DNA from: Lacrimispora celerecrescens
Lineage (GTDB): Bacteria > Bacillota > Clostridia > Lachnospirales > Lachnospiraceae
Direction: 5' to 3'
DNA: 64,000 nucleotides
Assembly: GCF_000732605.1 (NCBI RefSeq)
Contig: NZ_JPME01000010.1
Location: 186,036 to 250,035, forward strand
Shown here: positions 4,210 through 13,399 of the stretch, piece by piece
Layout: every line of letters starts with the position of its first letter
Position numbering within the stretch: position 1 is the stretch's first letter
Notes under the pieces: model-generated
The model's database searches: none
What the model was told of the DNA's origin: nothing
What the model saw: the letters and a program-made list of their open reading frames with translations, nothing else
Program-made: the position numbers and the translations under genes

Positions 4210-4249
4210 AAGGAGATAAATCAGAGGCATGCCTCTAATTTATCTCCTT
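4210..4249 (-). terminator. Terminator overlapping the phoU stop codon
   Basis: A 12-base stem (4210-4221 with 4238-4249) extends into an inner palindrome at 4223-4236. On the minus strand it is followed by a T-rich stretch (GTTTTAT). It contains the TAG stop of phoU and ends the phosphate operon. Confidence 0.75.
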
Positions 4250-4897
4250 TAACTCACCGGTAATCATGTATATCGTTCTTTCACATATATTGGTAGAATG
4301 GTCGGCGATCCTCTCAAGATACCGTCCTAAGAATAGAAGTTTAGTACCTTGTTTTGTAAGTTCTCTTTTTTCTGTAATAATGTTAAGGAAATCATTTATA
4401 ACGGTTTCATAGAGCCTGTCAACATCTTCGTCTCTCTCAGCTGCCTTTTGTGCAAGGGCAATATCCTCATTTACAAAGGCATCAAGGCTCATTTTTAACA
4501 TTTTCTGAGCAATATCTGCCATCCTTGGAATATCTTTTAGGGAATTCAAAATGGGTTCTTCGCCAATTTCAAGTATTACCTCTGCAATGTTTACTGCATT
4601 ATCTCCCATTCTCTCAAGATCTGTTATGATTTTCAGAACCGATGCAATTGTCCTTAAATCCTTGGCGAGAGGCTGCTGAAGGGCAAGAAGCATCATACAA
4701 TCCTTTTCAATTTCTAGTTCTAATTGATCTATTTCGTCATCTTTCTTTAAAACATTCCTTGCAAGATCAAGATCTTGTGTCTTCATAGCAGTCACTGACG
4801 TGTCAATAATATTCTCAACCAGAGCGCCCATTTTTAATACCTTTTGTTTCACGTCAAGTATCTTCTGTGTAAAACGTTCTCTAACCAATATGCTCAT
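4235..4897 (-). CDS. phoU: Phosphate signalling protein PhoU
   Basis: This 220-residue all-helical protein has the two PhoU repeats. Each carries the E/D-rich metal-binding pattern (DEIDQLELEIEKD in the first, DEDVDRLYETV in the second). RMGDNAVNIAE and RIADHSTNICE are the conserved helix signatures. PhoU links the Pst importer to the PhoR kinase and limits phosphate uptake when phosphate is plentiful (family knowledge). It is the last gene of the minus-strand pst operon, 33 bases after pstB1. Length is normal and nothing is missing. Confidence 0.95.
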   Translation of the reverse strand: MSILVRERFTQKILDVKQKVLKMGALVENIIDTSVTAMKTQDLDLARNVLKKDDEIDQLELEIEKDCMMLLALQQPLAKDLRTIASVLKIITDLERMGDNAVNIAEVILEIGEEPILNSLKDIPRMADIAQKMLKMSLDAFVNEDIALAQKAAERDEDVDRLYETVINDFLNIITEKRELTKQGTKLLFLGRYLERIADHSTNICERTIYMITGELKEIN

Positions 4898-4930: not shown

Positions 4931-5692
4931 TTAACCAAATCTTCCGGTAAGGTAATCATTCGTTCGATTATCCTTGGGGAATGAAAAAACCTCTTGGGTA
5001 TAACCTTGTTCTATTAGATCTCCCATTAGCATGAATGCAACCCGGTCAGCGATACGCCCAGCCTGCTGAACGGTATGTGGTGCAATGATAATGGTGTATT
5101 GCTCCTTAAGCTGCATTAAGGATTCCTCAATTTTTGCCGTTGAAATTGGGTCAAGAGCCGAACAAGGTCTGTCCAGCAAAATAACTTCCGGCTCAAGAGC
5201 CAAAACCCTGGCAATACACAAGCGCTGCTGCTGACCACCGGATAACCTGGCAGCAGGAGTATCCAGTCTATCTTTGACATCATCCCAAAGGGCAGACATA
5301 CGCAGAGCCTTCTCTACTTCCTCTGCTACAGCCGATTTGGATTTCATTCCGCCCATACGGGGCCCCAATGCGACATTGTCAAAGATGGACATAGGCAGAG
5401 ATGTTGGTACGTCAAAGACCATCCCTACCCTGCGGCGCAGTTCTGTCACATTAACGTCCGGGTCAAAGATGTTTTTCCCATCTAAAAGTATTTCACCCTC
5501 ATGACGGGCTCCCACAGTCAAGTCACTTAGACGGTTTAATGTGCGAAGCAGTGTTGTGATACCACTGTTGGCGGGACCAAAAACAGCCGTAATCCGGTTT
5601 TTAGGTAACTCCAGGTTAAGTTCTTTAATAACCTGCTTTTGTTGATAATAGAAGTTTAATCCTTTTATATCTATTTTTGATGTCTGTGTCAT
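4931..5692 (-). CDS. Degenerate PstB-like ATP-binding subunit (PstB1)
   Basis: This 253-residue protein is a full-length PstB homologue with the family's closing TGRFG and an intact ABC signature LSGGQ (residues 150-154), D-loop SALD and H-loop histidine (APHTVQQA). Key catalytic residues are changed. Walker A reads GPANSGITT, with Ile45 in place of the essential Lys. The Q-loop reads MVFDVP, with Asp94 for Gln. Walker B ends LLDRP, with Arg175 for the catalytic Glu. The frame is open throughout and conserved elsewhere, so this is not random decay. It probably cannot hydrolyse ATP in its own site but can give its signature motif to a partner. The partner candidate is the second PstB encoded at the head of the same operon, which has the opposite defect. 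It lies between pstA and phoU. Confidence 0.85.
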   Translation of the reverse strand: MTQTSKIDIKGLNFYYQQKQVIKELNLELPKNRITAVFGPANSGITTLLRTLNRLSDLTVGARHEGEILLDGKNIFDPDVNVTELRRRVGMVFDVPTSLPMSIFDNVALGPRMGGMKSKSAVAEEVEKALRMSALWDDVKDRLDTPAARLSGGQQQRLCIARVLALEPEVILLDRPCSALDPISTAKIEESLMQLKEQYTIIIAPHTVQQAGRIADRVAFMLMGDLIEQGYTQEVFSFPKDNRTNDYLTGRFG

Positions 5693-5702
5693 TTTTCACC
5701 TC

Positions 5703-6539
5703 TTAACGGCCTTTCGCTATGAACCGATTGACCAGCATATTGAAACCAACATTAAGCAGAAGAATAAGAATAATCAGGAGCGCTGCTGTTCCATAAGCGT
5801 TATCCATGGATATTCCCTCCCTCGCCAGTATATAAAAATGTACTGCCATCGTTCGAGTTGGGGAAAAGATTGACGTAGGCATGCGCAACGCTGAGCCGGC
5901 TGTTAAAATAACAGCAGCTGTCTCGGCTACACATCTTCCTATGCTCAAAATTACTCCATTCACGATACCAGGGAGTGCTGATGGGAGTACCGTCCTGGTT
6001 ATTGTCTGCCACTTCGTGAGTCCCAAAGAGAAGCCTACCTCCCGGTATAGCTGTGGCACAGTACGAATTGCCTCTTCTGATGTACGTATGATTGTAGGCA
6101 GAATCATGATAGCCATGGTTAATCCGCCGGATAAAATTGACCAACCCATTTTTAAGTATATAACAAAGAAGATAAAACCGAAAAGTCCATAAACAATAGA
6201 TGGAATCCCTGCCAGGGACTCGGCACTGAAGCGGATAATGCGGGTGACCCTGCTTTCACGTGTGTACTCCGTAAGGTATATAGCTGTTCCAATTCCAAAT
6301 GGTGTTGCAACAATAACGGCTACTGCGGTCACAATCAGAGTACCGACAATGGAGGAAGAAATACCCCCAGAACGGCCCATATCCCGCGGAATATCCGTTA
6401 AAAACTGCCAGCTGATCATAGGTATACCCTTGATTAGTATATGGGCAATTATAGAAAAAAGAATTGCAATAACAAGAAGAGCAGCTGTCCATATCAAACA
6501 TTTTGCTATCTTCTCGGAAGTTTTCGCGTTAATTCTCAT
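5703..6539 (-). CDS. pstA: Phosphate ABC transporter permease PstA
   Basis: This is a membrane permease of about 278 residues. It begins MRINAKTSEKIAK and has six predicted helices, including GGISSSIVGTLIVTAVAVIV and the cytoplasmic loop around GLTKWQTITRTVLPSALPGI that docks with PstB. The ATG at 6539 is used because a GAGGTGAGG ribosome site precedes it and it falls seven bases after the pstC stop; a longer reading from 6581 would overlap pstC. PstA and PstC form the asymmetric transmembrane channel for inorganic phosphate. It lies between pstC and pstB1 in one operon. Confidence 0.95.
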   Translation of the reverse strand: MRINAKTSEKIAKCLIWTAALLVIAILFSIIAHILIKGIPMISWQFLTDIPRDMGRSGGISSSIVGTLIVTAVAVIVATPFGIGTAIYLTEYTRESRVTRIIRFSAESLAGIPSIVYGLFGFIFFVIYLKMGWSILSGGLTMAIMILPTIIRTSEEAIRTVPQLYREVGFSLGLTKWQTITRTVLPSALPGIVNGVILSIGRCVAETAAVILTAGSALRMPTSIFSPTRTMAVHFYILAREGISMDNAYGTAALLIILILLLNVGFNMLVNRFIAKGR

Positions 6540-6546
6540 AGTGACC

Positions 6547-7392
6547 TCACCTCTTTCGTGTGATGTATTGGGCAGTAGCATTTAAAATCATGATAATAAC
6601 GAACAATACAATACCTGTGGCAAAAAGCGCCTGCTGATGTTCGCCGGATGCATATCCCATCTCAATACCGATATTCGTAGTCAGTGTCCTGACAGGGTCA
6701 AGAACGGATTCAGGAAGTGCGACAGCATTACCCAGAACCATAATTACTGCCATAGTTTCACCAATTGCCCTGCCTAAACCTAGTATTACTGCGGCAACAA
6801 TACCTGATTTGGCCGCAGGTAACAGCAAGGAATGTATCGTTTGCCATTGTGTCAGCCCTAATGCAAGTGCCCCATCTTTATAATGGCGAGGCAGCGCAAG
6901 GAGAGATACTTCGGTGATACTGATGATCGTTGGCAGGATCATAATACCCAAAATGATGGAACCAGCCAATATGCTTAAGCCCGGCCCACCCAGGTAATTA
7001 CGTATCATTGGTACAACGAACAATACTCCCCAGAACCCATACACCACGGAAGGTATGGCAGCCAACAACTGGATGGCTGGTCTGAATATGTTTCTAAGTT
7101 TTGCAGGAGCATACTCAGCCAAAAAAATACTGCAGCAAATGGCAATGGGAACTCCCACGATTGCCGCTCCTATAGTAACCGATACAGATCCCACTATCAT
7201 GGGGAAAATACCATAGGCGCCTTGACTGGGGGCCCATTTCATCCCAAAAACAAAGTTTATTATACCAACCTTGGCAATAATAGGTATACCTTTTATAAAT
7301 ATAAACACAGTGATGAGAGCCAGCACCGATAAAGTCGAAAGAGCAATTAGAAGAAACACACGCTCAGATAATTTTTCTTTAAAACTTTTCAT
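6547..7392 (-). CDS. pstC: Phosphate ABC transporter permease PstC
   Basis: This 281-residue permease has a long first transmembrane segment, the PstC-type motif around LLAAIPSVVYGFWGVLFVVP, and the coupling loop GLTQWQTIHSLLLPAAKSGI. It pairs with PstA. Its start codon overlaps the pstS stop as ATGA, so it is translationally coupled to the binding protein. Length and motifs are normal for the family. Confidence 0.95.
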   Translation of the reverse strand: MKSFKEKLSERVFLLIALSTLSVLALITVFIFIKGIPIIAKVGIINFVFGMKWAPSQGAYGIFPMIVGSVSVTIGAAIVGVPIAICCSIFLAEYAPAKLRNIFRPAIQLLAAIPSVVYGFWGVLFVVPMIRNYLGGPGLSILAGSIILGIMILPTIISITEVSLLALPRHYKDGALALGLTQWQTIHSLLLPAAKSGIVAAVILGLGRAIGETMAVIMVLGNAVALPESVLDPVRTLTTNIGIEMGYASGEHQQALFATGIVLFVIIMILNATAQYITRKR

Positions 7393-8237
7393 TTCTCTGC
7401 CCCCTCTTCTGATGGAATAAGTCCTTCATTAATCAGTAATCTTTGCCCCTCTGAAGAAAGGGTAAAATCTATGAATTTCTTATCTAATCCGATCGGCTCA
7501 CCGTCAGTCACAAACAAAAATTGCCTGGACAGTCTGTAGCTGCCATTCATAATATTTTCTCGTGTTGCTTCGATACTATCTAAATGTAATGCTTTCACTT
7601 CATCTGTAACTAAACCCAAAGAAATAAATCCTATCGCATTGGGATCATCTGCAACCAACTGCCGCACCGCCCCATTAGAGTCCTGGACGATAGCTTTCGG
7701 GGTTATCTCTTCTTCCCCCATAATCAGCTCCGTAAAGGCACTTCTTGTACCTGATCCTTCTTCACGCGCTATGATATTGATCTTTGACTTTGTGCCTCCC
7801 AATTGACTCCAGTCGGTAATTGTGGCAGCGTAAATATCGCGTATCTGATCTGAAGTAAGATTTTGAATCGGATTCCTAGGGTTCACGATTAATACCAAAC
7901 CATCCTTGGCAATTTCTACATTCCACAGATTTTTTTCATCATCTTTCAATGCACGGGAAGACATTCCAATATTAGCACTGTGTGTCTGAGTTGCTGTAAT
8001 ACCGGCCGAAGACCCTCCGCCCTGGATATCAATCACAGCTTCCGGATTTAAAGCCATGTACTCTTCAGCCAGAATCTCAGCATAGGGTTGTACCGAAGTT
8101 GAGCCTGCAATAATCGTGGCTGATTCAGGTGCTTGGCTGCAGGCCGTCAGTATACCCATAGATAGGATCAATATCACTGCGCTGATAGTAACTCTTATTC
8201 GTCTTAATAATTTGCATGTTACAATCTTTTTCCTCAT
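7389..8237 (-). CDS. pstS: Phosphate-binding lipoprotein PstS
   Basis: This secreted phosphate-binding protein of about 282 residues has a signal peptide ending in the lipobox LTACSQ, then AGSTSVQPYAEILAE, GGGSSAGI and REEGSGTRSAF, the phosphate-contacting loops of the PstS family. The ATG at 8237 is preferred. The frame is open to a TTG at 8255, but that has no ribosome site and would give an unusual leader. It delivers phosphate to PstCA. Gene order pstB2, pstS, pstC, pstA, pstB1, phoU on the minus strand points to one operon, although 114 bases separate pstB2 from pstS. Confidence 0.95.
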   Translation of the reverse strand: MRKKIVTCKLLRRIRVTISAVILILSMGILTACSQAPESATIIAGSTSVQPYAEILAEEYMALNPEAVIDIQGGGSSAGITATQTHSANIGMSSRALKDDEKNLWNVEIAKDGLVLIVNPRNPIQNLTSDQIRDIYAATITDWSQLGGTKSKINIIAREEGSGTRSAFTELIMGEEEITPKAIVQDSNGAVRQLVADDPNAIGFISLGLVTDEVKALHLDSIEATRENIMNGSYRLSRQFLFVTDGEPIGLDKKFIDFTLSSEGQRLLINEGLIPSEEGAEK

Positions 8238-8351
8238 ATCTCTCACAAAAATCAAACATCAAAATCATCAGCTATGATAAAACTCTAATGCTTGATTTCC
8301 TCCATTTCTCAGAATATATTAAAGAACTACAAGTTCACGTTTTGTAAATTT

Positions 8352-9149
8352 TTAACCGAAACGACCTGTAATATAGTCCTCGGTACGTTTATCCTTAGGA
8401 TTAGCAAAAATTTCTGCTGTTGGTGCGTATTCGACCAGTGTCCCTGCTCTATCATGATCCATCATCATAAACGCAGTCATATGAGACACCCTTGCCGCTT
8501 GTTCCATACTATGAGTTACAATAATAATTGTATATTTTTGAGCCAGTTCCTCCATTAACCCTTCCACTTGCATTGTAGATTCCGGATCAAGAGCACTACA
8601 TGATTCATCCATTAATAGGACTTCAGGCTCCACAGCCAATGCACGAGCAATACATAGACGTTGCTGCTGGCCCGGAGAAAGATCAAAAGCAGATTCTTTC
8701 AGCTTGTCCTTAACTTCATCCCATAAAGCCACCTGGCTCAAGTTCCGCTCCACAATCTCATCAAGACGAGCTCTTTGTTTTATACCATGATGCCTTGGGC
8801 CAAAAGCCATATTATCATACACAGACATAGGGAATGGATTCGGCTTTTGAAATACCATACCAACTCTTTTTTTCAGTGCAACAACATCCATACTCTTATC
8901 ATAGATAGAAACATCATCAAGTAAAATTTTTCCCTCTACCCTAACTCCTGGGATCGGGTCATTCATACGATTAAAAAGACGCAGAAGTGAAGATTTACCG
9001 CATCCCGACGGCCCAATAATGGCTGTAATAGCACATTCCGCAATATCCATGGTAACATTCCTCAGAGCTTGGAAGTTTCCATAATAAAGGTTTACCGCAT
9101 CGGTTTTTATCTTGGCTCTTTGACCAGACTCTAACATTAGATCATCCAT
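8352..9149 (-). CDS. pstB: PstB-like ATP-binding subunit (PstB2) with altered signature motif
   Basis: This 265-residue phosphate-importer ATPase has Walker [10 protein letters not shown] (Lys52), Q-loop Gln101, Walker B LLMDES with Glu182, D-loop SALD and the H-loop VTHSMEQAA. These are all intact for ATP binding and hydrolysis. The ABC signature is LSPGQ (157-161) instead of LSGGQ, and the usual DEP is DES. In an ABC dimer the signature acts on the partner's nucleotide. This protein therefore supplies the working Walker site, and PstB1 downstream supplies a working signature. It is the first gene after the PHO box, with a GAGGGTG ribosome site. Homodimer function cannot be excluded, since a Pro in the signature may be tolerated. 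Confidence 0.88.
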
Positions 9150-9250: not shown

Positions 9251-9279
9251 ATTATACAGTAATTAATGATATGAAATGC
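9251..9279 (-). promoter_or_regulatory. Probable pst operon promoter -10
   Basis: On the minus strand a perfect TATAAT occurs at 9256-9251, about 31 bases downstream of the PHO box. The base stretch at the expected -35 position (GCATTT, 9279-9274) is poor, as expected for a PhoP-activated promoter. Confidence 0.55.
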
Positions 9280-9287
9280 ATTATCTG

Positions 9288-9315
9288 TGTTAATTATAGG
9301 TAAAATTTGTGTAAA
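9288..9315 (-). promoter_or_regulatory. PHO box (PhoP operator), three direct repeats
   Basis: Read on the minus strand there are three hexamers, TTTACA, TTTACC and TTAACA, each separated by five bases, giving an exact 11-base period. This matches the Firmicute PhoP operator pattern TTAACA-N5-TTAACA. The box is placed just upstream of the likely promoter of pstB2. It indicates induction of the operon by phosphate starvation through PhoPR, whose genes are not in the window. Confidence 0.75.
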
Positions 9316-10585: not shown

Positions 10586-13399
10586 TTAAATACGGCCTGT
10601 TTCCATAAATGCCGTACGGTCATAGCGTCCGGTTAATAAATATGGAATTACATCATTGGCTTCTAATTTTTCTACTAAATTAAGTTTATGTACTAACAAA
10701 CTGTTCTTTGAATAAGCACCGCCTATTATGGTGTTAACAGGAAGTTCTGCCCATGGGTCATCAATACTTGATTTTAAATTGAGCGAAACAATTCCCGGCT
10801 CCCATGATTGATAATTATATTCGCATTGATTCATAAGCAATGCTCCGTTCAGGAAATGAGAAACACCGTTTTCATCTGGCATCCGGTCGAAATGAAAATA
10901 GAACCCGCCTCCAAATGTCTGCTTACCTGCTGCCGGGAATTGATAGAGCGCCGCGGTCAGAGGATTATTATATTCACCGATTTTCATGGTTGCTTCTACA
11001 AGCTGTGTTCCTCTTCTCGTTACTCCCGCTGTTACCGTGTCACCATTTCTTCTAATGACAAATTCTCCGCCCAGTTTCTTTGGAATACTTCCATTATCAC
11101 GGCCGCATTGTACTGCCATTTCAGCTCCGGATCCGCCCAGTACCAGGCCCATCGTATATAAGCCAAGTTTATCACCGTAAGTTGCATAAACCCCCAAAAT
11201 AGCTTCGTAGTAGTCATCTGCAAAGGTCGGATTATTCACATGGCAGATGGATAAGGTAACTACCGGCATAGAAAATGGTTTCAACGGCGGCGGAAGTATC
11301 CGCGCAATTGCTGCCGGGTCAGTAAGATAGCTGATGTAGAGTCCCTCCTGATTATCCATTAGAGAAGTCTTGCCGAAGTTTGGTAATTCATCTTTGGAAA
11401 CCCGAAAGCTTGGAGCTTTTTGTTTTTCCGTAAATAATTCACTTCCTGCTTCATAACCAGTACGTACTGCAGGTGCGATAGTTCCATCTTTTACGGCACT
11501 TCCTATTACCTTCACCTCTGCACCCTTTGCTTCTAATTCAGAAACCAAAGATTGATCCGGTCTAAATCCAATAGAAAGTACGACTGCGTCGGCAGATACA
11601 TTTACTTCTGCATGATCTTCCAACCTCTCCAGTACAATCCCGTTATCTTTTATCTCTTTTAAGGAATGTCCCAGCAAATAATCTGCACCTGATCTGGCAA
11701 GCCGTCCACAGACATCAGCCACATTGGTATGGTTTGCATTTGGAGCAGGCTTATCAAGCATATCAATAATGGTGACCTGATTTCCATCTTCACAAAGATA
11801 TTCTGCCGTCTCAAGTCCTGTAAGCCCAGCACCGATCACAGCTACTTTTTTCCCTTTTAATGCTGAATTTCCTGACAGCACCGATTCCACCGTAAATACG
11901 TTGTCACCCTTTATTCCGGGGATTTTTCCTGGAATAATAGATGCAGAGCCTGTGGCAAGAATGACTGCATCCGGCTTATATTCCATAATCATATCTGCAG
12001 TTGCTTCCGTATTTAATTTTACTTCTACTCCAAGACGTTTCAATTCACCGTTATAGTAATCGGCAATCCACTGCATACGTTCCTTTAACGGCGGCTTCTT
12101 GGCCAGATTAACGGTTCCTCCAAGTTCACTCTGGCGGTCAAGCAAAGTCACTTTGACTCCACGAAGGGCAAGGGTTTGTGCTGCACACATTCCAGCCGGT
12201 CCGCCGCCAACAACAATTGCAGTATGTCCTTTGGTATCATGAACAAGATTCCCATATTTCCGCTCTCTTGCATATCTGGGGTTTAGTGCACATTCCGGCG
12301 GTAAACCGGCAGCGTTATATTCATTCAGGCTTTCAAAGCAGCGCAGACAGGAGATGCATTTGCGTAACTCACTTTCTCTTCCTTCCTGTACTTTTTTTCC
12401 CCACTCTTCATCGGCATTCCAGGTACGTCCCATGGAAATAAAATCTACTACCCCTTCTTCCAGGAATTTTTCCGCTACTGCAGGTTCTCTAAATACAGAA
12501 ACACCAATTACAGGAATTTTCACATGGCTTTTTACTGCCAAAAGCATGTCATGTCTCCAACCCTGAGGGAAAGAAATAGGTTCTATGCAGGTCATGCCTG
12601 TTTCATATAATCCACAGCTGATATCAATAAAATCAATACCTGCCTGCTCTAGGGCCATGGCAATCTTTATACCATCCTGAATATGGATATATTCTTCTGT
12701 TACACCTGTCTTATCCAGAAATTCTTCTACACTTAACCGGACGCCGATTGGGAAGTCCGGACCACATTCTTTCCGTATTCCATCGATAATTTCAATAATC
12801 ATTCTTAGACGATTTTCAAAACTTCCGCCATATTCGTCTTCCCTTTTATTTGTATAAGGAGACAAAAACTGATGCAACAGATATCCATGTGCAGCGTGTA
12901 ATTCCACTCCGTCACAACCTGCTTTTTGAACTCTGGCAGCACCTTCAACAAACTGCAAAACCAATTGTTTTATTTCATCTATGGTAAGTGCACGTGTCTC
13001 CTGTTTCACTAATTTACAAGGAATCGGGGACGGTGCAACTACCGGCTGTCCGCCAATAAGTGCAGACACCGTTTCACGTCCAGGATGATGCAGCTGTATC
13101 AATATCTTACTTCCATGCTTATGTACTGCTTCCGCAAGTTCAGCCAGTGGTCCGATATGCCTGTCTTTTGTGACTGACAGCTGTCTCATAAGCCCTGCTC
13201 CATGCGCATCATTGACACGGGTGATCTCTGGTATGATGATTCCTGCACCGCCAACCGCTCTTGCTTCGTAAAAAGCAATCATGTCTTCAGACGGCGTTCC
13301 ATCAAGATTGGCAAGTCCGCAGCCCATTGGAGACATGACCAAACGATTCTTAATCGTTACCTTTCCAATTCTCCCCGTTTCAAATAATTTGTTATACAT
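10586..13399 (-). CDS. Old-yellow-enzyme/2,4-dienoyl-CoA reductase-type flavoenzyme fused to acetoacetate-decarboxylase-like domain
   Basis: This 937-residue protein has four parts. Residues ~1-340 are an FMN TIM barrel of the NADH:flavin oxidoreductase family (RLVMSPMGC, HAAHGYLLHQFLSPYTNKR). Next is a 4Fe-4S cysteine cluster, CISCLRCF with a further Cys before ALNP. FAD and NAD Rossmann folds follow (VVGGGPAGMCAAQTLA, VAVIGAGLTGLETAEYL). These three are the layout of 2,4-dienoyl-CoA reductase and the bile-acid enzymes BaiCD/BaiH. Residues ~690-937 look like acetoacetate decarboxylase (ILPPPLKPF, then IPKK near residue 775, where the family has its Schiff-base Lys). The added domain is unusual. 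Partner genes are an SDR downstream and a divergent PucR-type regulator. A likely role is anaerobic reduction of an unsaturated organic acid or steroid/aromatic compound; the substrate is unknown. Confidence 0.85.
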   Translation of the reverse strand: MYNKLFETGRIGKVTIKNRLVMSPMGCGLANLDGTPSEDMIAFYEARAVGGAGIIIPEITRVNDAHGAGLMRQLSVTKDRHIGPLAELAEAVHKHGSKILIQLHHPGRETVSALIGGQPVVAPSPIPCKLVKQETRALTIDEIKQLVLQFVEGAARVQKAGCDGVELHAAHGYLLHQFLSPYTNKREDEYGGSFENRLRMIIEIIDGIRKECGPDFPIGVRLSVEEFLDKTGVTEEYIHIQDGIKIAMALEQAGIDFIDISCGLYETGMTCIEPISFPQGWRHDMLLAVKSHVKIPVIGVSVFREPAVAEKFLEEGVVDFISMGRTWNADEEWGKKVQEGRESELRKCISCLRCFESLNEYNAAGLPPECALNPRYARERKYGNLVHDTKGHTAIVVGGGPAGMCAAQTLALRGVKVTLLDRQSELGGTVNLAKKPPLKERMQWIADYYNGELKRLGVEVKLNTEATADMIMEYKPDAVILATGSASIIPGKIPGIKGDNVFTVESVLSGNSALKGKKVAVIGAGLTGLETAEYLCEDGNQVTIIDMLDKPAPNANHTNVADVCGRLARSGADYLLGHSLKEIKDNGIVLERLEDHAEVNVSADAVVLSIGFRPDQSLVSELEAKGAEVKVIGSAVKDGTIAPAVRTGYEAGSELFTEKQKAPSFRVSKDELPNFGKTSLMDNQEGLYISYLTDPAAIARILPPPLKPFSMPVVTLSICHVNNPTFADDYYEAILGVYATYGDKLGLYTMGLVLGGSGAEMAVQCGRDNGSIPKKLGGEFVIRRNGDTVTAGVTRRGTQLVEATMKIGEYNNPLTAALYQFPAAGKQTFGGGFYFHFDRMPDENGVSHFLNGALLMNQCEYNYQSWEPGIVSLNLKSSIDDPWAELPVNTIIGGAYSKNSLLVHKLNLVEKLEANDVIPYLLTGRYDRTAFMETGRI

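Follow-up and report, generated by a model that had tools for sequence, protein, structure and literature searches.

Complementary motif defects in the two PstB proteins of a Lacrimispora celerecrescens pst operon point to an asymmetric phosphate-importer ATPase

PstB, the ATPase of the Pst phosphate importer, is a textbook ATP-binding cassette (ABC) ATPase, and its solved structures contain two identical chains. A pst operon of Lacrimispora celerecrescens (assembly GCF_000732605.1, contig NZ_JPME01000010.1) encodes two different PstB proteins instead, PstB1 and PstB2, each of which lacks part of the catalytic motifs. The operon lies in the window, i.e., the whole analysed stretch of 64,000 nucleotides (positions 186,036 to 250,035 of the forward strand). 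How could such an importer assemble a working ATP site? The motifs, distribution and selection of the two proteins argue for a Pst-type phosphate importer in which PstB1 and PstB2 very probably form an obligate asymmetric heterodimer on PstC-PstA, with one hydrolytic and one degenerate site.

Complementary motifs of PstB1 and PstB2

Motif positions in PstB1 were assigned by alignment to the PstB chains of E. coli PstSCAB (PDB ID: 9k3x and 9k3s). Ile45 stands at the position of the Walker A Lys, Asp94 at that of the Q-loop Gln and Arg175 at that of the catalytic Glu (Gln in 9k3s); the LSGGQ signature, the D-loop and the H-loop His206 are retained. PstB2 retains the Walker A Lys, the Q-loop Gln, the catalytic Glu and the H-loop His (VTHS), and carries LSPGQ in place of LSGGQ. 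The motif check thus confirmed the residues, including their numbering in PstB1, that an earlier note on this DNA had named from the letters of the sequence.

In a dimer of nucleotide-binding domains (NBDs), each ATP site consists of the Walker side of one subunit and the signature of the other, as described in the accessible part of PMC7756269. Since each site is shared in this way, only a mixed PstB1-PstB2 dimer is expected to hold a complete one. PstB1 and PstB2 would pair obligately and head-to-tail on PstC-PstA. The first site, built from the Walker A/B motifs, Q-loop and H-loop of PstB2 and the LSGGQ of PstB1, would hydrolyze ATP; the second, joining the defective Walker side of PstB1 to the LSPGQ of PstB2, would not, and might have a structural or regulatory role. 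The complementary motifs support the arrangement predicted in the earlier note, i.e., one intact and one doubly degenerate site. From the sequences we infer heterodimer assembly, one hydrolytic event per cycle and phosphate as the substrate.

Within the set of open reading frames (ORFs) examined, the complementarity of the defects is exact at the level of motifs. The set comprises 185 distinct PstB ORFs scoring at least 200 bits against one of three references, identical ORFs and those under 200 bits having been removed: 126 have all motifs intact, 31 are defective on the Walker side alone, 28 are defective in the signature alone, and no ORF combines the two kinds of defect. Because the loci were mostly retrieved with PstB1 as the query, these class counts are not population frequencies. 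All 31 Walker-side variants (26 of the window type) have LSGGQ intact, and all 28 signature variants (23 of the window type) have the Lys, Gln, Glu and His intact. Every Walker-side variant also has Ser in place of Cys two residues ahead of the Walker A Lys position, and Leu in place of Phe at position 99. The other 154 ORFs have Cys and Phe, respectively.

The Walker A Lys position is occupied by Ile, Thr, Val or Ala in the 26 PstB1 sequences, never by Lys. Arg175 is invariant in all of them and is specified by five codons (AGA, CGG, CGC, AGG, and CGT), and the Thr before the H-loop His is replaced by Pro (26/26, as against 0/159 of the others). In PstB2 the signature is variable (SP, PA, AP, SV, SL, TA, SA, AVE), with Pro, Ala, Val or Leu as its third residue in 23/23 sequences; Ser replaces the Pro that follows the catalytic Glu in 22 of these 23, and does so in 5 of the 126 canonical proteins too. 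Sequencing error was rejected as an explanation and chance is unlikely, since the same substitutions are found, with different codons, in 14 of the 25 genomes of the genus and in other families.

The fold of PstB1 is predicted to be intact. Its AlphaFold2 monomer model has a mean predicted local distance difference test (pLDDT) score of 95.1, based on an alignment of 38 rows, mostly canonical PstB; the best matches in the PDB are E. coli PstB chains (template modelling (TM) score of 0.91 for 9k3s and 0.94 for 9k3x, 50% identity).

Operon context and the position of phoU

The genes of the operon and the signals at its ends are as follows (window coordinates; NCBIfam models):

8352..9149, minus strand: pstB2, 265 amino acids (aa), first gene of the operon; ORF and TIGR00972 at 383.3 bits, above the cut-off
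7389..8255, minus strand: pstS, phosphate-binding protein of the PstS family; ORF and TIGR02136 at 227.6 bits (cut-off 206.6)
6547..7392, minus strand: pstC, permease; ORF and TIGR02138 at 297.9 bits
5703..6581, minus strand: pstA, permease; ORF and TIGR00974 at 287.2 bits
4931..5692, minus strand: pstB1, 253 aa; ORF and TIGR00972 at 339.7 bits (cut-off 343.2)
4235..4897, minus strand: phoU, final gene of the operon; ORF and TIGR02135 at 221 bits
4210..4249, minus strand: terminator-like hairpin of 18 pairs at the end of phoU, probable end of the operon (consensus match only)
9266..9293, minus strand: promoter-like site TTAACA-16-TATCAT upstream of pstB2 (weak consensus match only)

Thus pstB2 and pstB1 flank pstS-pstC-pstA, and phoU comes last (B2-S-C-A-B1-phoU). 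The genes overlap or are closely spaced, with 96 bases between pstB2 and pstS. PstS, PstC, PstA, PhoU and PstB2 all score above their family cut-offs; PstB1 lies 3.5 bits under that of TIGR00972, yet this is its best family. The ORF check agrees with the earlier note that both pstB frames are open and belong to one operon with a single pstS, pstC and pstA. Terminator-like hairpins number 10 in the region, compared with a mean of 4.6 in shuffled sequences, and promoter-like sites 25, compared with 16.0. A second pst operon of the same genome, on contig C52, has the canonical order pstS-C-A-B-phoU (G, C and L numbers are our handles for genomes, contigs and loci). Elsewhere in the window, a 937-aa ORF (10586-13399, minus strand) combines old-yellow-enzyme-type FMN, pyridine nucleotide-disulphide oxidoreductase and C-terminal acetoacetate decarboxylase domains.

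That phoU directly follows pstB1 in the window suits a different explanation: PstB1 could be a pseudo-ATPase acting mainly as a regulator or scaffold (e.g., in PhoU signalling), with PstB2 homodimers driving transport despite LSPGQ. This signature is a single-residue change, and working ABC proteins with signature variants exist. Such a division of labour is nevertheless improbable. PstB1 keeps LSGGQ, the D-loop Asp and the H-loop His in 26/26 sequences, as expected of a protein that serves the ATP site of its partner. A PstB2 homodimer, for its part, ought to conserve its own signature, and it is the signature that varies while the Walker side is constant (23/23). Besides, phoU follows pstB2 rather than pstB1 in G1203 and G1212, where the order is B2-U-S-C-A-B1.

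Distribution, selection and ancestry of the pair

In the genus, PstB1 and PstB2 occur together in 14 of 25 genomes and are both absent from the other 11 (among the latter is G010, with a completeness of only 67%); the PstB2 of G019 is fragmentary and lies on another contig. PstB1 relatives with 89-96% identity were found in 13 of 24 same-genus genomes besides that of the window and in one of 36 other relatives searched. Canonical PstB is present in 24 of the 25; separately, a canonical-looking PstB of one same-genus genome (L053, G009:C32:87488-88231) has an in-frame TAG.

Wider searches extended the range of PstB1. In the order it was found in 5 of 392 genomes, including that of the window. 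At the level of the class, 203 of 391 genomes gave a match at E <= 1e-95; residue-level inspection of the 30 best of these identified PstB1 in G422 and G752, the two best after the genome of the window, and canonical proteins at the other loci. In the phylum, 5 of 398 genomes were matched: PstB1 is encoded by that of the window, G821, G899 and G934, and G869, which passed the E-value limit, has a canonical PstB and was removed from the list. Searches around G251, G899 and G752 (3/38, 3/4 and 4/148, respectively) added G1203, G1212 and G1227. Among the matches listed, L065 (WRKD01000051.1, a metagenome-assembled genome (MAG) of Bacillota) also carries PstB1. A plasmid search matched 138 records, none at 60% identity or above.

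Outside the genus, PstB1 is thus known from 12 genomes of other families and the named record L065. Eight of these 13 sources have PstB2 in the same operon (G047, G251, G287, G076, G821, G899, G1203, and G1212), and the order B2-S-C-A-B1 recurs in distant families. G422 encodes a PstB2 that lies on a separate contig and is cut off at its end; in G934 and L065, where the contig starts inside the operon, its presence cannot be judged. The co-occurrence implied by the earlier note was thus seen in 14/14 genomes of the genus that carry PstB1 and in 9/13 sources outside it (2 not judgeable); in G752 and G1227, PstB1 is present and the genome search found no PstB2.

In three genomes (G047, G251, and G076, with completeness of 77%, 89% and 96%), the pair is the only PstB detected at E <= 1e-75, accompanied by one PstC/PstA set; each of the other PstB1 genomes in the permease-set check has more than one such set. 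This suggests that the pair might be sufficient for Pst function. G023 was not counted: no canonical PstB was seen in it, but its PstC/PstA matches are broken, for which reason the assembly is taken as noisy.

Several points weigh against the obligate heterodimer. The two genomes for which the genome search found no PstB2, G752 and G1227, belong to one genus; both carry pstS-C-A-pstB1, and neither encodes a PstB upstream of pstS. As only some 100-150 bases of contig follow pstB1 in each, a downstream PstB2 may have been cut off. Another contig of G752 carries a second PstC/PstA set but gave no PstB match; G1227, which shows 8% contamination, yielded three canonical PstB matches. In these two genomes a contig break may have hidden PstB2, or else PstB1 may pair with canonical PstB; the latter would still be an asymmetric dimer. 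In the genome of the window, too, the canonical PstB (C52) could pair with PstB1. PstB2 homodimers may retain some activity, because LSPGQ alters one signature residue only. Association, ATPase activity and transport are predicted from sequence, and the AlphaFold2 model leans towards the canonical fold through its mostly canonical alignment. Finally, the genomes in which the pair is the only PstB are incomplete, and that comparison covered Pst genes, not other kinds of phosphate transporter.

In a general form, PstB1 would pair with canonical PstB encoded elsewhere, and PstB2 would be a further paralogue. The canonical PstB in the genome of the window agrees with this, as does G752, where PstB1 occurs without a PstB2 that was found and a canonical pstB-phoU is also present; no pstS, pstC or pstA lies beside the latter in the 14 kb covered. 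The explanation is quite unlikely, as no third PstB was detected in G047, G251 and G076 at E <= 1e-75, and genomes of the genus have either both PstB1 and PstB2 or neither, whereas nearly all have canonical PstB. The canonical pstB-phoU of G752 (contig C7, L187 6494-10514) is followed by ORFs that by eye resemble a response regulator and a histidine kinase.

The missing catalytic residues might also mark the genes as decaying duplicates of the canonical pst operon. Rates of nonsynonymous and synonymous substitution (dN/dS) were calculated within the genus by the Nei-Gojobori method, excluding pairs with dS outside 0.1-1.5. The medians are 0.044 for PstB1 (77/78 pairs usable) and 0.039 for PstB2 (76/78), and the relaxed selection (dN/dS near 1) that the earlier note had named as telling against the pair was not seen. 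Pseudogene decay was rejected on these medians, and the origin as decaying duplicates is very unlikely, as Arg175 is invariant in 26/26 sequences with changing codons and the deviant lineage is common to several phyla. The partners give medians of 0.029 (PstC), 0.054 (PstA), 0.109 (PstS) and 0.091 (PhoU); the maximum for PstA is 0.695, a range that the noisy G023 assembly may inflate. As canonical PstB gives 0.014, a figure from 9 of 45 pairs only, the deviant pair may evolve somewhat faster than the canonical protein.

Complementary PstB pairs are not a local oddity, judging from the sequences of a second type in other phyla. Among the matches listed for the 80 loci retrieved with a PstB1 alignment as the query, at least five tandem pairs of this type occur, all in named MAGs (L066 of Elusimicrobia, L088 of Aminicenantes, L092 of a planctomycete, L124 of WOR-1, and L126 of Ignavibacteriae), with the operon order S-C-A-B1'-B2'-U. 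In the first PstB, the Lys, the Glu and LSGGQ are kept, and Ala and Asn replace the Q-loop Gln and the H-loop His, respectively. The second keeps the Lys, Gln, Glu and His, and has LSLEQ (twice), LTGEQ, LSAEQ or LSLEA as its signature. In the WOR-1 genome (L124 1-9158), a canonical pst operon and an asymmetric one of the second type are arranged head to tail.

Trees were built with ten motif columns removed (a 94-row quick tree and a 61-row careful tree), leaving out most same-genus copies of PstB1 and PstB2 and canonical ORFs at least 72% identical to a kept one or shorter than 235 aa; the set was thinned again to reach the 61 rows. PstB1 and the five second-type Walker-side counterparts form one clade of 21 rows in the quick tree (Shimodaira-Hasegawa approximate likelihood ratio test (SH-aLRT), 100), which recurs in the careful tree with 16 of the 31 Walker-side variants (100/99). 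The PstB2 clade (100/98) and the second-type signature counterparts (99/93) lie among canonical PstB in the careful tree, where they share a set with a Caldisericota PstB and five further canonical rows (98/89). The two are not joined there, and are joined in only 2% of 200 bootstrap trees. An approximately unbiased (AU) test on the 94-row set did not reject a single clade of both (p 0.969), the tree constrained to that clade being 60 log units above the quick tree. The signature defect may thus have had either one origin or two.

In a permease tree, from which same-genus copies and the three operons (of 114) whose permease is short were omitted, PstC and PstA of the PstB1 operons form a clade (99). 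L088 and L092 join it (97), and L066, L124 and L126 are placed elsewhere, so the deviant PstB proteins and the permeases have not always travelled together. A locus titled Paenibacillaceae bacterium SIG286 (L068, SVDS01000108.1) falls inside the genus of the window in this tree; its title may be misassigned.

A broader reading is plausible without being clearly probable: the obligate asymmetric PstB heterodimer could define an ancient class of Pst importers, present in several phyla, with at least two chemical types and one deviant lineage, and sometimes serving as the only Pst system. The Lys, Gln and Glu would have been lost in the class of the window and related groups of its phylum, and the Gln and His in Elusimicrobia, Aminicenantes, Planctomycetes, WOR-1 and Ignavibacteriae. 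If so, a single ATP site would power phosphate import wherever the pair is the only Pst ATPase.

Relation to known ABC systems

In a naturally split PstB, each catalytic element would belong to a known polypeptide, which would open to experiment several questions that homodimers make difficult: whether a single ATP suffices per phosphate, which of the NBDs contacts PstC and which PstA, and how PhoU reads the transporter. The two differently degraded types also allow comparison of what a degenerate site must keep.

The PstB1 model has the same NBD fold as PstB in E. coli PstSCAB (PDB ID: 9k3s, 9k3x, and 9k3y). Each of these entries contains two identical PstB chains with intact motifs, save for the Glu-to-Gln replacement in 9k3s, whereas the operon in the window encodes two complementary proteins. 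The view of PstB as a homodimer, cited in the earlier note, fits these structures. In Firmicutes, however, pstB genes in tandem are known, and for B. subtilis a complex that contains PstBA as well as PstBB has been modelled, according to the accessible part of PMC11466899. In E. faecalis, two pstB genes with unequal roles belong to one pst-phoU operon (PMC12096839, in part); the available text covers four motifs in both proteins and reports no degenerate site, without mention of the Q-loop. The likeness to these systems lies in the two PstB proteins of one system, whereas here pstB2 and pstB1 flank pstSCA. Identity with the Enterococcus tandem pair was rejected: its Walker A/B, LSGGQ and H-loop motifs are reported as intact in that text, and each PstB of the window lacks some.

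Closer in pattern are the consensus/degenerate dimers of the TAP and Pdr5 type, in which one NBD likewise has Walker-side defects and the other has signature defects, with one consensus site. In Pdr5, the Walker A Lys is replaced by Cys, the catalytic Glu by Asn and the H-loop His by Tyr, and the partner signature is LNVEQ (PMC7756269, accessible part). PstB1 differs in keeping the H-loop His and in having Arg for the Glu. The same distribution of defects is found here, Walker-side in PstB1 and in the signature of PstB2, and is kept in 26 and 23 sequences, respectively. The known dimers of this kind are exporters or belong to other families, whereas PstB1 and PstB2 are a separate NBD pair of a phosphate importer. 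RbsA and NupO are bacterial importers with one predicted degenerate ATP site (PMC11466899, in the part available); their NBDs are fused in tandem and serve other importers, in contrast to the separate proteins of the phosphate family described here.

No PstB with complementary defects was found in the open-access literature searched, most subscription papers lying outside that search, and the accessible parts of the Dpp (PMC12136057) and IrtAB (PMC10246721) literature contain no PstB case. The consensus/degenerate ABC dimer as a kind is already known; its occurrence in PstB, its conservation there and the existence of a second type appear to be new within the literature searched.

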